Origin: Candidatus Poribacteria bacterium
Lineage (GTDB): Bacteria > Poribacteria > WGA-4E > PCPOR2b
Reading direction: 5' to 3'
Assembly (NCBI GenBank): GCA_028819845.1
Contig: JAPPKS010000006.1
Coordinates: 1 to 64,000 of the forward strand
DNA length: 64,000 bases
In this document: positions 8,072-55,707 of the stretch, piece by piece
Numbering within the stretch: position 1 is the stretch's first letter
Layout: each line of letters begins with the position of its first letter
Made by a program: the position numbers and the translations under genes
The notes under the pieces: model-generated
What the model was told of the DNA's origin: nothing
Seen by the model: the letters and a program-made list of their open reading frames with translations, nothing else
Databases searched by the model: none

Positions 8072-10996
8072 TTATTTCACGATTACCATCCGCCGGAGCG
8101 CGTTATAATCGTCCGTTCGGAGTTGATAGAAATAGGCGCCGCTAGCGACGGCTTCGCCGTTTTCGTTCCTGCCGTCCCAATAGGCAGCGCGGGTTTTCTC
8201 GATATACACGCCCGCCCGTTGATGACCTAAATCCAACTGTCGAATTAGGGCGCCGTTTAAGTCGTAAATCGAGATTTGGACGTCCGAACCCGTCGCTAAC
8301 CGGTAAGGTATCCAGGTCTCCGGATTAAACGGATTTGGATAGTTTGGCAGAAGTGCGGTCTCTTTCGGCGCCAAGACTGCGAGGAGTTGCTCCAACGTGA
8401 GAATGCCGCGCTGGTATTGCGGCGTGTTTTTGCCGGCCAGCTTGGCTTCGGTTAACCAGTTTTCGACCATTTCCGCGGTCAGGTCTCTAGGCATCGCCGC
8501 ACGGGCTGCCGGCGCAGCGGCTACGCTGTCTACCGCGGCGGCGACCGCGATAATGTCGTCGATGTTCACAACGCCGTCGCCGTTGATGTCCGCTGCACCT
8601 TGGCTTGTCTGTCCGTAGTGCAATGCGACATAGACAATGTCTTGGACATCTACGCTGCCGTCACCGTTGGCGTCGGCGTCTTTGGCTTCGACGGTCTCAT
8701 CTTCGGTTTCGTCATCCGGGTCTTTCGATTCGATCGGTTGCGGAGAGGCGTTAATGGCAATGGAGGACGGGCGATCCATGCCGCTTGCGATAACATCTTC
8801 AACGTTGGATGCGTCCAAATTGGCACGCCGGACTGTTTCATCACGCCAATCTGTCCAATATATTTTTCGATTGTCGATATCTAAGTCTAAGCTGTGCACC
8901 CCCGCTAATTCTGTAACGACGTCTTCGACATTTGAACCATCCAAGTCGGCACGCTGGATTTTTCTCGCGGCAGCATCTGTCCAGTACATTTTCCCGTCTG
9001 CAACATCTAGGGCAATGCTGGTTGGCGCCTGCAATCCTGTGACGAGGTCTTCGACATTTGTGCCATCCAAGTCGGCGCGCTGGATTTTATTCGTGCCGTC
9101 ATCTGTCCAGTACATCTGACCGCCATCAACATCTAACGCCAAACCGCTTGGAATGCGCAAACCGCGTGTCAGGAGGTCTTCAACGTTTGAACCGTCTAAG
9201 TCGGCACGTTGGATTTTATCGGTGCCGTTATCTGTCCAATACATCTTACCGGCCGCAACATCTAGGGCAATGTCTTTCGTCCCTTTCAATCCTTGTGTCA
9301 CAAGGTCTTGGACGTTTGCGCCGTTCAAGTCGGCGCGTTGAATTTTATCCGTGCCGGAATCTGTCCAGTACATGTGTCCGCCGGTAACATCTAGGGTTAA
9401 ACCGCTTGGTTGTTGCAGACCGCGCTGAACTAGGGTTTCGATGCGTGAAGCGTCGGAGCTGGCTGCGCGGATGCTCATTGTGCCGCGGTCGATCCAGTAA
9501 ATGGCAAGCGGCTTCTGTTCACGGACGGCGGCGACGGGAACGTTTGCGGTGAGCGAACTGCCGCTGTAGCTTGCGATGCCGCCGGCGCGCACACTGAACG
9601 ACAACGTCGCATTTGTGTCAAAGTCGGTGCCGTCAAAAGCGAGTACAATCGTAATCTGCGTGTCACTTTCGCGCCGAACCCTATTAACAGTAACACCTGC
9701 AATCCCGGAAACCATCACGGCGTTACTGATGCGGGACAAAGACTGTTCCCATGCACCGTTCCTCAATGTGAGCGCCACATCGCTTCCGTCTAACACCGTC
9801 TCTGTTAAGGGCGCCGAAGTTGAGGCGTGTAGCGTCGGTTCCTTTTTCGCCTCCACTGTAATACGCACGCTCGCAGAACAGTTGTTAGTTTTGTCACTCT
9901 CGTTTGCAACACTATCGACGCATGCGCCGAAATAGTAGGTTCCGGCAGATGTTGGGGCCGTAAGACTGATGCTCTCGGCACTCCTCCCATTAGCATTAAG
10001 CGCGCTAACACTGGCCGTGCCGACCGCTGTATCGCTAGTCGAAATCGTGGAATCGGCCGAGCGGTAGTAGCGCAGCGTGGTCGCGGCCGCACTGCTTGTG
10101 CCGCTATTTCTGACGACCGTAGACAGCGTAAAACTTTCGCCGGCGGTTAAGGTGCTTTTACTGACTGTCGGACGGTCAACGATTAAGTCCGATAAGTCCG
10201 ATTGAACCTCCACCGTGATACGCACGCCGGCGGAGCAGTTGTTGTCAGAATTGCTCTCGTCCGCAACTGCGTCAACACAAGCGCCGTAGTAGTAGGTGCC
10301 GGCAGATGCAGGGGCGGTGAGACTGATACTCTCGGCACTCGTCCCATTTGCATTCAGCGCGTTAACGCTGTCCGTGCCGACTGCTGTATCGCTGGACGAA
10401 ATCGTGGCATCGGTCGAGCGATAGTAGCGCAGCGTGGTGGCAGCGGCACTGCCAGTGCCGCTATTTCTGACGACCGTAGACAGCGTGAAACTTTCGCCTG
10501 GCTTTAAGGTGTTTTTACTCACCGTTGGATGATCAACGGCTAAGTCCGATTGTTCAGACTCGGAACAGTTAGATGCTCCCGTAAAACGTGTCACAACCCA
10601 AACTTCACCACTCTTTACAAAGCGGAACCAATTGAAATCAACTTCTGTAGGTTCTGAAATAAGAACATTTGTTGCACCTGCGAGTTGTACAACACCGTAT
10701 CCGTCACTTCTATGAGCAACCAAAAGTAGACTCTCGGCACCGCTGCTGTTCACAACAAGGTCTGCTGCAAAGGTGTCTCTCGGAAATTGAAGACCGACAC
10801 AGATTTCCGGTGCACGGTCTATTAAGTCTCCTGCTAAAGCCGTGTCTCCGGCCTTAATTGCCGCTTGCAAATCGCTGTATTTTGAGCTTACAGGAACTTG
10901 ACTCTGGCTGAAACCAACATCTGGCAACCCACACACCAACACTATTACGATGAGAATTGACAAGGTAATTTTTCGACTTATGATAAACATGGCCAT
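8072..10996 (-). CDS. Secreted CARDB/YWTD-propeller protein with sorting tail
   Basis: A 974-residue exported protein, start behind GGAGTGTCGA. After the signal and an unassigned N-terminal region, two CARDB-type adhesive modules occupy about 151-262 and 268-380 (both with SFTLSTVVRNSGT and AGTYYxGACVD). A strand-rich domain spans about 390-495. Five or six YWTD repeats (MYWTDSGTDKIQRADLNGAN and variants) at about 500-760 form a beta-propeller like that of LDL receptors. Dockerin-like loops (DANGDGSVDVQD, DINGDGVVNIDD) and the FlgD-like tail follow. It is probably a surface or secreted binding protein. The dockerin and tail are nearly identical in layout to the neighbour at 5184-7937, suggesting module exchange. 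Confidence 0.85.
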   Translation of the reverse strand: MAMFIISRKITLSILIVIVLVCGLPDVGFSQSQVPVSSKYSDLQAAIKAGDTALAGDLIDRAPEICVGLQFPRDTFAADLVVNSSGAESLLLVAHRSDGYGVVQLAGATNVLISEPTEVDFNWFRFVKSGEVWVVTRFTGASNCSESEQSDLAVDHPTVSKNTLKPGESFTLSTVVRNSGTGSAAATTLRYYRSTDATISSSDTAVGTDSVNALNANGTSAESISLTAPASAGTYYYGACVDAVADESNSDNNCSAGVRITVEVQSDLSDLIVDRPTVSKSTLTAGESFTLSTVVRNSGTSSAAATTLRYYRSADSTISTSDTAVGTASVSALNANGRSAESISLTAPTSAGTYYFGACVDSVANESDKTNNCSASVRITVEAKKEPTLHASTSAPLTETVLDGSDVALTLRNGAWEQSLSRISNAVMVSGIAGVTVNRVRRESDTQITIVLAFDGTDFDTNATLSFSVRAGGIASYSGSSLTANVPVAAVREQKPLAIYWIDRGTMSIRAASSDASRIETLVQRGLQQPSGLTLDVTGGHMYWTDSGTDKIQRADLNGANVQDLVTQGLKGTKDIALDVAAGKMYWTDNGTDKIQRADLDGSNVEDLLTRGLRIPSGLALDVDGGQMYWTDDGTNKIQRADLDGTNVEDLVTGLQAPTSIALDVADGKMYWTDAAARKIQRADLDGSNVEDVVTELAGVHSLDLDIDNRKIYWTDWRDETVRRANLDASNVEDVIASGMDRPSSIAINASPQPIESKDPDDETEDETVEAKDADANGDGSVDVQDIVYVALHYGQTSQGAADINGDGVVNIDDIIAVAAAVDSVAAAPAARAAMPRDLTAEMVENWLTEAKLAGKNTPQYQRGILTLEQLLAVLAPKETALLPNYPNPFNPETWIPYRLATGSDVQISIYDLNGALIRQLDLGHQRAGVYIEKTRAAYWDGRNENGEAVASGAYFYQLRTDDYNALRRMVIVK

Positions 10997-15650: not shown

Positions 15651-15651
15651 A

Positions 15652-15688
15652 AAGAAACCGTGTTTTGAAGAAAAAACTCGGTTTCTCT
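15652..15688 (-). terminator. Rho-independent terminator after the HAF protein gene
   Basis: The arms GAAACCGAGTTTT and AAAACACGGTTTC enclose a TTC loop, with a T-rich stretch following on the minus strand, directly after the stop at 15691. Near-identical hairpins follow the secreted-protein genes ending at 20377 and 26601. Confidence 0.7.
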
Positions 15689-20140: not shown

Positions 20141-20337
20141 CCTTTGAATCTCCCTTTTAGATTAAATGTTAGATTTTTGAACAAGTTTCGTAGGTTGGGC
20201 GTAGCGGTGTTGACGATAAACACTTCAATGCGCCGCGTGCTTTACCTGGTTTGATTGCGTTAGAAAATGTGATTGATGGAGCGTAAACCAACCGACAAAA
20301 ATCGAAGTTGAATCGGGAGGGGCTTCCGAAATTCAGA

Positions 20338-20374
20338 AAGAAACCGAGTTTTGAAGAAAAAACTCGGTTTCTCT
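20338..20374 (-). terminator. Rho-independent terminator
   Basis: The hairpin AGAAACCGAGTTTT/AAAACTCGGTTTCTT lies directly after the stop at 20377 and is nearly identical to those at 15652 and 26549. Confidence 0.7.
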
Positions 20375-26344: not shown

Positions 26345-26548
26345 CTTGTAAAGGGGGAGAATTTTTTGCCTCTTGTCGGTGCAGCGGTTCTGGAGGTGAA
26401 GACTCGAAGACTTGAAGACTATCGCCCTCCCTATTCGGTCGGTTGATCCTTCGCTATCCGCTCAGTCGATCCCTCGTAATTCACTAGGTTGATCTCAACC
26501 TAAAGAAATTCCAAGTTGAGTCGGGAGGAACCCCTCCCGAACTTCGGA
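26345..26548. other. Repeat-rich intergenic region, part 2
   Basis: It contains the right half of the interrupted palindrome, then the motif CTATCGCCCTCCCTATTCGG and two variants of TTCGCTATCCGCTCAGTCGA, a dispersed sequence also found near 850, 25255, 31005, 31440 and 41770. No gene was seen. Confidence 0.5.
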
Positions 26549-26586
26549 AAGAGACCGAGTTTTGCAGAAAAAACTCGGTTTCTCTT
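26549..26586 (-). terminator. Rho-independent terminator
   Basis: The hairpin AGAAACCGAGTTTTTTCTGC with AAAACTCGGTCTC lies after the stop of the WD40 secreted protein (26601). It is the same type as those at 15652 and 20338. Confidence 0.65.
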
Positions 26587-53736: not shown

Positions 53737-53957
53737 TTGTTACAACTTCAGAATTGGAAAATAAAATTGGTCTATATCGGATTCGGTAGTTTCTTCGGTT
53801 GTCTTTGCGCGATAATCGGGATGTTAGCGTCACCGGTCACGGCGCAAAGAGATAAGTTCGGGGATACGGCAAATCGGGCGCGGCACTCGGAGTAGGGGAA
53901 AACGGCGGGATTGTCGGCACTAATGATAAATTCGGGAATACAAACGTCCTAGACTAG
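53737..53957 (+). pseudogene. EHGG-repeat protein, deleted and frameshifted
   Basis: TTG 53737 lies behind AAGGAGAAGGCACA. It reads the family anchor (LVYIGFGSFFGCLCAIIGML) and VTAQRDKFGD, then the frame breaks. The family sequence resumes in another frame as YGKSGAALGVGENGGIVGTN, ending at 53957. The IEC-x-L-TVVD block and most repeats are missing. An internal deletion and a frameshift have therefore inactivated this copy. Confidence 0.6.
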
Positions 53958-53979: not shown

Positions 53980-55134
53980 ATGTTTAGCAGCAAAGATTTG
54001 AAGGTTAAGTTGGTCTATATGGGTTTTGGCGGAATGATTGCTATCATCGGGATGTTGATTGGAATTGGGATGCTGTCTTCGGTCATAGCGAAAAATGATA
54101 AGTTCGGCGATATTGAGTGTTCAAGTTTGAGGGTCGTTGATGAAGACGGCATAACAAGGATAATCCTCAGCACTGACGATCTCGCAGGTTATGATGACGA
54201 AAACATAAGGGTGCGTATTACGGGGGACGCTTCCGATGGCGATGTCTATGTCCATGGCAAGGGCGGTTCCAAGTACGGCAGTGCGAGTGCGACGCTTGGA
54301 ATCGGCAAAAATCGTATCGAACACACTGACCCATTAAAAATAGAATGGAGACAACACGGTTATGTCGGTGCCTATGGGGGTAATCCAGAAGTGGGATCGG
54401 TCGAGTTGAGTATCAATGAACATGGTGGGATGGTCGATGTTCGTGGAAAGGATCCTATAACGAGGGGGGTGTTTATCGGTATCAATCAAAATGAAAACGG
54501 CGGAGTTGTGAGTGTTTATGGCATGGGCGACAGCAAATCGGAGGCGAGGCTTGGTATCAGTGAAAACGGTGGCGGAGTTGATGTCTTTGGCAAAGATGGA
54601 GAATTGTACGTGGGGCTCAGCACCGATGAACGCGGGGGGCATGTTAATGCCTACGGCAAGGATGGCTTGGGTGTGGCGCTTGATATTGATGAATACGGTG
54701 GGAGTGTTACCGCCTATGGCAAGGATGGTAATCTGAATGCGTCGGGGATCGGCATTGATGAACACGGAGGGGTTGCCTATATCTTTGGCAAGCACGGCAA
54801 ATCGGGTGTGAGGCTCAGTAGCGATGAACACGGCGGGGAAGTCAATATCGTGGGCAAGGACGGCGGATCGGGGGTGTTGCTCAGTGCCAGTGAACACGGC
54901 GGGGATGTTCTTCTCAGTAGCATTGACAGCGTGAGGGTGTCGCTCGGTATCAGTGAACACGGGGGGCATGTCATCGCCTATGGCGAAGGCAAATCGGCTG
55001 CGTCGCTCCGTGTTGACGAAGAAGGCGGGGATGTCAGAGTTTTCGGCAGAGGTAAAGGCGAGGCTACCTTGAGCATCAACGAATATGGCAACGGTGGCGT
55101 CTCCACTTGGGACAAAAACGGCTATCGGCAATAA
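53980..55134 (+). CDS. Membrane-anchored EHGG-repeat protein, long form
   Basis: A 384-residue protein; start behind GGAGGGCAACACA. The anchor is at about 9-35 (VYMGFGGMIAIIGMLIGIGM). Residues 42-80 contain NDKFGDIECSSLRVVDEDGI. Then about ten units of roughly 24 residues follow, each with E-(H/N/Y/R)-G-G between two short strands (LSTDERGGHVNAYGKDGLGV, LSSDEHGGEVNIVGKDGGSG), and the C-terminus ends SINEYGNGGVSTWDKNGYRQ. It predicts a long beta-solenoid on the outer face of the inner membrane or beyond. The DNA coding for repeats is itself internally similar, so length change by recombination is likely. Function is unknown. Confidence 0.8.
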   Translation: MFSSKDLKVKLVYMGFGGMIAIIGMLIGIGMLSSVIAKNDKFGDIECSSLRVVDEDGITRIILSTDDLAGYDDENIRVRITGDASDGDVYVHGKGGSKYGSASATLGIGKNRIEHTDPLKIEWRQHGYVGAYGGNPEVGSVELSINEHGGMVDVRGKDPITRGVFIGINQNENGGVVSVYGMGDSKSEARLGISENGGGVDVFGKDGELYVGLSTDERGGHVNAYGKDGLGVALDIDEYGGSVTAYGKDGNLNASGIGIDEHGGVAYIFGKHGKSGVRLSSDEHGGEVNIVGKDGGSGVLLSASEHGGDVLLSSIDSVRVSLGISEHGGHVIAYGEGKSAASLRVDEEGGDVRVFGRGKGEATLSINEYGNGGVSTWDKNGYRQ

Positions 55135-55150
55135 CAAAGGGGGATTCAAG

Positions 55151-55273
55151 ATGAATGAGATAAACACGGCACATCTGGTTATCATGGTTATCAGTGGTAT
55201 TGCTGGCGGAATCATCTGGAATGTTTTGACAGCTCTGTTGAATGGTTACTTCAGAGAAAAATGGGGGGGGTGA
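55151..55273 (+). CDS. Membrane anchor piece of a split EHGG protein
   Basis: A 40-residue protein; start behind AAAGGGGGATTCAAG. One membrane helix (AHLVIMVISGIAGGIIWNVL) is followed by a basic end FREKW and a G8 tract at 55263-55270 containing its stop. It overlaps the frame at 55261-55707 by 13 bases. With one more G (G9) the two frames become one protein with anchor and IEC-x-L-TVID head, as in the family. It is therefore probably the first part of a single gene with a contingency tract. Confidence 0.6.
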   Translation: MNEINTAHLVIMVISGIAGGIIWNVLTALLNGYFREKWGG

Positions 55274-55707
55274 ATTTTAATTCAAAACTCACTTCCCCGG
55301 AGATTGAGTGTAAGAGATTGACGGTCATTGATCGTAATGGCAAACCGAGAGTGATTCTCGCCAGCGATTATCCATTCATTAGCGATATTCCTCGATCCAT
55401 GCCCCCGTCCAAGTGGGACGGGTTTGAGGGCGTTCTTATCTATAGTGATGAAAACTCCGGGAGGGTCACGATCAATGGCAATAGCAAAAGCGAAACCAAG
55501 CGCAACACAGTATCACTCTTTGCCAGCGAACACGGCGGTAGTATTGGGGTCTATGACGAAAGCGAAGGTAATGTAGAGATAATTATCGACAAACACGGGG
55601 GATATGTTGAAGCATCCTCTGGCAAAGGCGGGCGGTGTGCCATGTGTATTAACGAATACGGCAACGGGGCTGTCTCCACATGGGACAAAAACGGTTATAA
55701 GCAATAG
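55261..55707 (+). CDS. EHGG-repeat protein body, no anchor in this frame
   Basis: A 148-residue frame beginning with the ATG that starts the G8 tract. It carries SPEIECKRLTVIDRNGKPRV, an insert (YPFISDIPRSMPPSKWDGFE), units FASEHGGSIGVYDESEGNVE and IIDKHGGYVEASSGKGG, and the C-terminus CINEYGNGAVSTWDKNGYKQ. It has no signal or anchor of its own; the ATG has no proper ribosome-binding site. It is most likely expressed by frameshift from 55151 or after a change in G-tract length. Confidence 0.6.
   Translation: MGGVNFNSKLTSPEIECKRLTVIDRNGKPRVILASDYPFISDIPRSMPPSKWDGFEGVLIYSDENSGRVTINGNSKSETKRNTVSLFASEHGGSIGVYDESEGNVEIIIDKHGGYVEASSGKGGRCAMCINEYGNGAVSTWDKNGYKQ

Follow-up and report, generated by a model that had tools for sequence, protein, structure and literature searches.

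In the genome of a sponge-symbiont bacterium, taken to be a poribacterium (4.61 Mb in 35 contigs), a short hydrophobic reading frame and a repeat-bearing frame meet at a run of eight G residues, and the question was whether this junction is a switch, a site of recoded or coupled translation, or the mark of a broken gene. The window, which is the whole stretch of DNA analysed, comprised 64,000 nucleotides (positions 1-64000 of contig C11). The anchor frame 55151-55273 (ORF1) had been described in the first-pass annotation as ending in eight G at 55263-55270, with the repeat-bearing frame (ORF2) starting at the ATG just 5' of them; both descriptions were confirmed from the sequence. The features of the locus and its related copies in the window were as follows.

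55136-55143, + strand: Shine-Dalgarno of ORF1 (AAAGGGGG), 7 nt 5' of the ATG, read from the sequence
55151-55273, + strand: ORF1, a 40-residue hydrophobic membrane anchor, ATG at 55151 and TGA at 55271-55273, translated as MNEINTAHLVIMVISGIAGGIIWNVLTALLNGYFREKWGG and stop
55263-55270, + strand: G8 tract, one of six in the genome, counted exactly from the sequence
55261-55707, + strand: ORF2, 148 residues, head and repeats with neither signal nor anchor, ATG at 55261 and TAG at 55705-55707
55264-55298, + strand: quasi-palindrome or hairpin, 15-bp stem (12 Watson-Crick and 2 G-U pairs) with a 5-nt loop
55300-55368, + strand: IEC-x-L-TVID head in ORF2, matching positions 35-57 of the 58-position family profile
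55639-55704, + strand: conserved C-terminal cassette (INEYGNGAVSTWDKNGYKQ) in ORF2, from alignment A2
53980-55134, + strand: intact paralogue of 384 residues with anchor, head and repeats, directly upstream and ending 16 nt before the ORF1 ATG
53749-53865, + strand: remnant paralogue, anchor in frame to DKFG, head missing, repeats resuming in another frame
2317-2628, - strand: free-standing head gene (MSDITNPTYESVTCKSITIVDDEG...) without anchor, preceded by its own Shine-Dalgarno-like AGAGGAG

ORF1 terminated in WGG followed by TGA, with the G8 tract at its 3' end. The reading frame of ORF2, which began with MGGVNFNSKLTSPEIECKRLTVID, carried the head SPEIECKRLTVID and ended in the cassette listed above, was -1 relative to that of ORF1. 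The Shine-Dalgarno of ORF1 was strong (duplex energy -10.7) and the ATG of ORF2 was without a good one (-2.9), both energies being based on a generic anti-Shine-Dalgarno sequence. Taken together, the evidence described below fitted a built-in on/off switch less well than an ordinary lone frameshift, either real or introduced in assembly, and the locus is probably a frameshifted paralogue without regulation.

One former gene in two frames

The pair had the architecture of the EHGG family, namely an N-terminal anchor, an IEC-x-L-x-V(xD) head, beta-repeats of about 21-23 residues and an NEYGNG..TWDK end. A family profile of anchor plus head (A3, 58 positions) was searched in 84 genomes of the phylum, and 126 matches were found in 47 of them, with up to 17 per genome. 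Anchor and head stood in one open frame in 111 of the 126 matches, which confirmed the family order of anchor followed by IEC-x-L-TVID head that had been proposed on first reading; 4 matches were stop-flagged, 6 were head only (the target included) and 5 were anchor only or partial. In the target's own genome, 13 of the 17 matches at E <= 0.001 were full-length anchor plus head.

ORF1 and the head of ORF2 were each aligned to 14 paralogues of the same genome with 300 shuffles per alignment. ORF1 matched four of them (C16:39565, C16:37685, C12:88208 and C11:86356) with z of 7.1-11.0 and 0 of 300 shuffles as good in each case, while none of the other 10 went beyond z 1.4, and all four of these anchor relatives were fused to heads. 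The head of ORF2 matched all 14 paralogues, for one of which 1 of 300 shuffles was equally good. The top raw score for both halves was given by C16:39565 (67 for ORF1, z 10.7; 104 for the head, z 16.1, the best head match; 0 of 300 shuffles for either), and BLASTP against it returned E values of 1e-6 for ORF1 and 1e-10 for ORF2. This paralogue is a single frame of 277 residues with both parts in the order seen in ORF1-ORF2, so that the two halves were colinear with an intact homologue. Codon usage pointed the same way, the ORF1 stretch scoring 0.112 in its own frame versus -0.115 in the frame of ORF2, and ORF2 itself scoring 0.089. The shared fused paralogue, the fused matches across the phylum and the codon usage together established that ORF1 and ORF2 derived from one gene, now in frames offset by -1. 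The suggestion that the two frames were halves of one anchor-plus-head gene was thereby upheld.

Homology in ORF1 ended at residue 30 (base 55240) and in ORF2 began at residue 14 (base 55300). The linkers in between (residues 31-40 of ORF1 and 1-13 of ORF2) had no counterpart in the aligned paralogues, and the frame change could therefore be placed only between about 55241 and 55273, 5' of the ORF1 stop. Within this interval the G8 tract is by far the likeliest site, which lends support to the original choice of break point. Since G8 is so rare in the genome (see below), one falling in a 30-base junction is unlikely to be a coincidence.

A lone and probably unregulated frameshift

According to the reading we favour, a former single EHGG gene with N-terminal anchor, IEC-x-L-x-VxD head and beta-repeats would have undergone a lone change of length, most likely in G8, which would have shifted its halves into different frames. 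Either a base is truly absent and the copy may be decaying like other members of the family, or the assembly miscounted one tract. The product expected from the locus as sequenced would be a 40-residue anchor stub from the good Shine-Dalgarno, with little or no head protein. That the frame change is unregulated is suggested by the isolation of the lesion, which was private to the target, and by the different ways in which other members were broken.

The tract itself was assessed in the genome context. Six G8 tracts were counted in the 4.61 Mb, three per strand, and there was no G9; runs longer than G8 would have appeared as overlapping matches, of the kind listed for A runs, which reach 12 in this genome, and no overlapping G8 matches were present. 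The single G8 of the window was unremarkable against the 1.39 expected from dinucleotide shuffling, and the six of the genome compared with about 100 if the window shuffle is scaled up, which indicated depletion of long G runs. G/C runs of lengths 5 to 8 fell smoothly in 464 kb (339, 44, 5 and 2). Besides the target, the six sites comprised one in frame in secA, one near the 3' end of a 359-codon permease-like frame and three in or near apparently non-coding DNA, secA and the permease being recognised by reading the sequence. Among the family loci scanned, 47 in-frame anchored heads were preceded, within 75 bases, by G/C runs whose maximum was 2 to 6, and none by a run of at least 7; the underlying scan gave 70 rows including chance ORFs, the count being restricted to the 47 in which a membrane-like stretch was in frame, and the scan missed the target itself owing to motif spacing. 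As far as seen, the tract was private to the target gene. Its rarity in the genome, and the lack of conservation of either tract or split in the family, were thus as clear from the comparisons as the one-gene origin.

Nine other loci with head-only or stop-flagged matches were inspected individually, and none had a G/C run of at least 6 or an A/T run of at least 7 at the break. In G004:C90 a TAA stood in the anchor-head linker where the orthologue of the same genus, G006:C25, has CAA (L143 850-1080 and L144 870-1100), and the frame of G006:C25 also terminated early. An anchor-like stretch and a head lay in different frames with other sequence in between in G012:C140; a stop was found inside the head in G012:C80 and shortly 3' of it in G047:C117; the frame changed inside the anchor in G007:C38; and G009:C29 was a head fragment. 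G079:C78 and G006:C25 were in frame with an anchor which the profile had overlooked, and the stop in G080:C3 was located 5' of the ATG. In the target's genome C16:43944 was anchor only, and the partial matches C12:122758 and G009:C4:4497 actually lay inside fused frames. The lesions among broken relatives thus included nonsense changes, deletions and insertions; breakage is fairly common and of many kinds in this birth-and-death family. A second copy of the target with another G count was sought, and none was found: GTDB contigs gave four relatives and no orthologue, viral contigs and phage records gave none, and no orthologue was recognised in the 84 phylum genomes, which represent one genome per species.

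Whether the assembly was at fault was evaluated in 464 kb, roughly 10% of the genome, made up of the window and 20 other stretches, with coding frames called by codon usage alone. There were 22 same-strand overlapping pairs of coding-like frames, of which only the target had a long tract at the junction, and 7 of 535 coding-like frames ended with a long tract in their last 40 bases. The G8 in secA (C8:118168) read correctly in frame. Because tract-linked breaks were not systematic (1 of 22 junctions) and the secA tract was correct, assembly error is disfavoured as the cause, although one miscounted base may still account for the split. ORF2 was open and coding-like for 146 codons, which means that the change was recent or that its product is still made.

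The locus resembled the singletons assigned to pseudogenes or errors by GeneTack, in a survey of 1106 genomes (PMC3711429), where singletons were mainly sequencing errors or recent indels and the programmed, phase-variable or coupled classes needed clusters of at least 5 genes. The target likewise stood alone, its halves were each backed by intact homologues, and its site was not conserved; it differed from those singletons in that its tract coincided with a rare hairpin. This coincidence speaks against plain decay, which does not predict a rare hairpin around stop and restart at the tract. An ordinary frameshift would make the locus a further broken member of a rapidly evolving family, and would warn against inferring a switch from a single short tract.

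Coupled restart, switching and recoding as less likely readings

In order of probability, the favoured unregulated frameshift was followed by translational coupling, phase variation and programmed frameshifting. The first of these alternatives starts from the hairpin at 55264-55298. It begins directly 3' of the ORF2 ATG, its left arm is the G tract, and the stop of ORF1 lies within it together with a GTG of ORF2. Folding of RNA 55260-55300 gave -17.7 kcal/mol (z -3.15, 0 of 200 shuffles), while the same hairpin in a context of 131 bases had a z of only -1.10; it had first appeared in one of five folds. Comparable stems in the 464 kb numbered four on the + strand, the target included, the other three being one repeated palindrome; the - strand had one unrelated stem and a further copy of that palindrome. 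The count used a criterion shaped on the target hairpin, and the rarity is thus overstated. Imperfect inverted repeats are described as hot spots of mutation (PMC7202029). A terminator on the - strand was considered for the same stem, which is trailed there by ATTTTTC, and was set aside as the scan did not list it. The repeated palindrome (AGAAACCGAGTTTTT ... AAAAACTCGGTTTCT) occurred at 15651-15688, 20337-20374 and 26548-26585 of the window and at 9834-9870 of stretch L156, that is at least 4 times in the 464 kb, in the manner of REP or a miniature mobile element.

If translation were coupled, ribosomes ending at TGA 55271-55273 would melt this hairpin and then reinitiate at ATG 55261 or GTG 55270, which would give a soluble head without an anchor. 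Both starts adjoin the ORF1 stop (ATG at -10, GTG at -1), the stem holding the stop and the GTG is well placed, and a good Shine-Dalgarno on ORF1 with none on ORF2 would suit such dependence. The layout is an ordinary one, as in 19 of the 22 same-strand overlapping pairs in the 464 kb the downstream frame had a start between -60 and +30 relative to the upstream stop. The gene at 2317-2628 on the - strand, which has a head without an anchor and its own Shine-Dalgarno, suggests a cytosolic form of the EHGG family and shows that a soluble head is possible. The stop/start overlap and the stem around stop and GTG are shared with translationally coupled pairs; the target differs from them in that it came from one fused gene and that no relative was seen with a matching split. 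A 40-residue anchor alone, moreover, has no evident job. Coupling is therefore an unlikely reading, although it stands first among the alternatives.

The first-pass annotation had proposed a contingency locus or a programmed frameshift, and neither proposal was supported. As a contingency locus, the gene would make either the joined product, anchored in the membrane, or a truncated product, depending on slipped-strand changes in the G tract. The tract does lie at the domain junction, in a frame-setting position inside the former gene, and the family is predicted from its N-termini to be exported or membrane-anchored. In Campylobacter jejuni, polyG loci include G8, and tracts of at least 7 are the main switch (PMC4965091). 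A G8 within a gene that sets the frame is common to those loci and the target. The same source gives 12-29 such tracts per genome in C. jejuni, with 29 loci in one strain, and eight is the bottom of the G8-G12 range analysed there. The present genome had no comparable set of tracts, only six G8 with none longer and one of them in secA; no relative had a tract at the junction (0 of 47 heads with a G/C run of at least 7), the lesions of relatives were unrelated, no variation in length was seen, no second copy having been found, and the locus was a singleton. Phase variation is accordingly improbable, a little below coupling. A demonstrated switch would make this a case of phase variation in Candidatus Poribacteria, a subject that none of the papers listed in a library search addressed by its title.

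The two ideas may also be combined, with the split allele giving a soluble head by coupled restart, and slippage or template switching in the G tract, which lies in a quasi-palindrome, occasionally producing a joined, membrane-anchored allele. We consider this a long shot; it would let a single gene of a sponge symbiont place its product alternately in the cytosol and in the membrane.

No change in the DNA would be needed if the joined protein arose by programmed -1 ribosomal frameshifting, or by slippage of transcription, on the G run. The codons of the zero frame are TGG GGG GGG TGA, in which G.GGG.GGG fits X.XXY.YYZ directly 5' of the stop, and low-level frameshifting on G runs has been described for herpesvirus thymidine kinase (PMC5009743). 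The target shares with that gene an indel in a G run and a possible low-level rescue, and differs in that no evidence of rescue was seen here. Downstream RNA segments of 70, 87 and 110 bases folded like their shuffles (z 0.13, 0.20 and -0.34), and no stimulatory structure was thus present; the hairpin is no stimulator either, since it contains the tract and would be melted with the ribosome there. The tract and the split were not conserved, with 111 of 126 matches in one frame and no other tract split seen, against the conserved site in a cluster of at least 5 genes that marks the programmed class in the survey (PMC3711429). This mechanism is very improbable. That the frames were never one gene, ORF1 being an unrelated small membrane ORF by chance 5' of a head gene, is scarcely credible, for although the break-flanking linkers (ORF1 31-40, ORF2 1-13) match nothing in the aligned paralogues, ORF1 matched four fused ones at z 7.1-11.0, the best head match included.

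The EHGG family

As a lead, the family is more useful than the split copy. It occurs in 47 of the 84 phylum genomes searched, and the scanned members have no Pfam or NCBIfam name, neither collection having given a significant match. The AlphaFold2 model of ORF2 was an all-beta repeat domain (mean pLDDT 75.9, pTM 0.65), and a fold search with it against the PDB and a viral library returned nothing at E <= 0.001; the best E in a PDB sequence search was only 0.035. The model of the 384-residue paralogue was poor (pLDDT 55.9). The anchor of ORF1 was acidic at its N-terminus and did not have the TAQ-like end seen in related anchors; export may therefore have been on the way to being lost even in the joined form.

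The gene at 53980-55134 of the window can serve as an example of the anchor-head-repeat family. Elsewhere on the same contig, at about 85,400-86,550 on the - strand (genome G000), an EHGG gene of 136 residues had a Phage_integrase frame (PF00589, E 9.8e-17) next on the same strand, and beyond it further EHGG-type repeats in a different frame; the arrangement looks like the insertion of an integrase gene into, or next to, an EHGG repeat gene.
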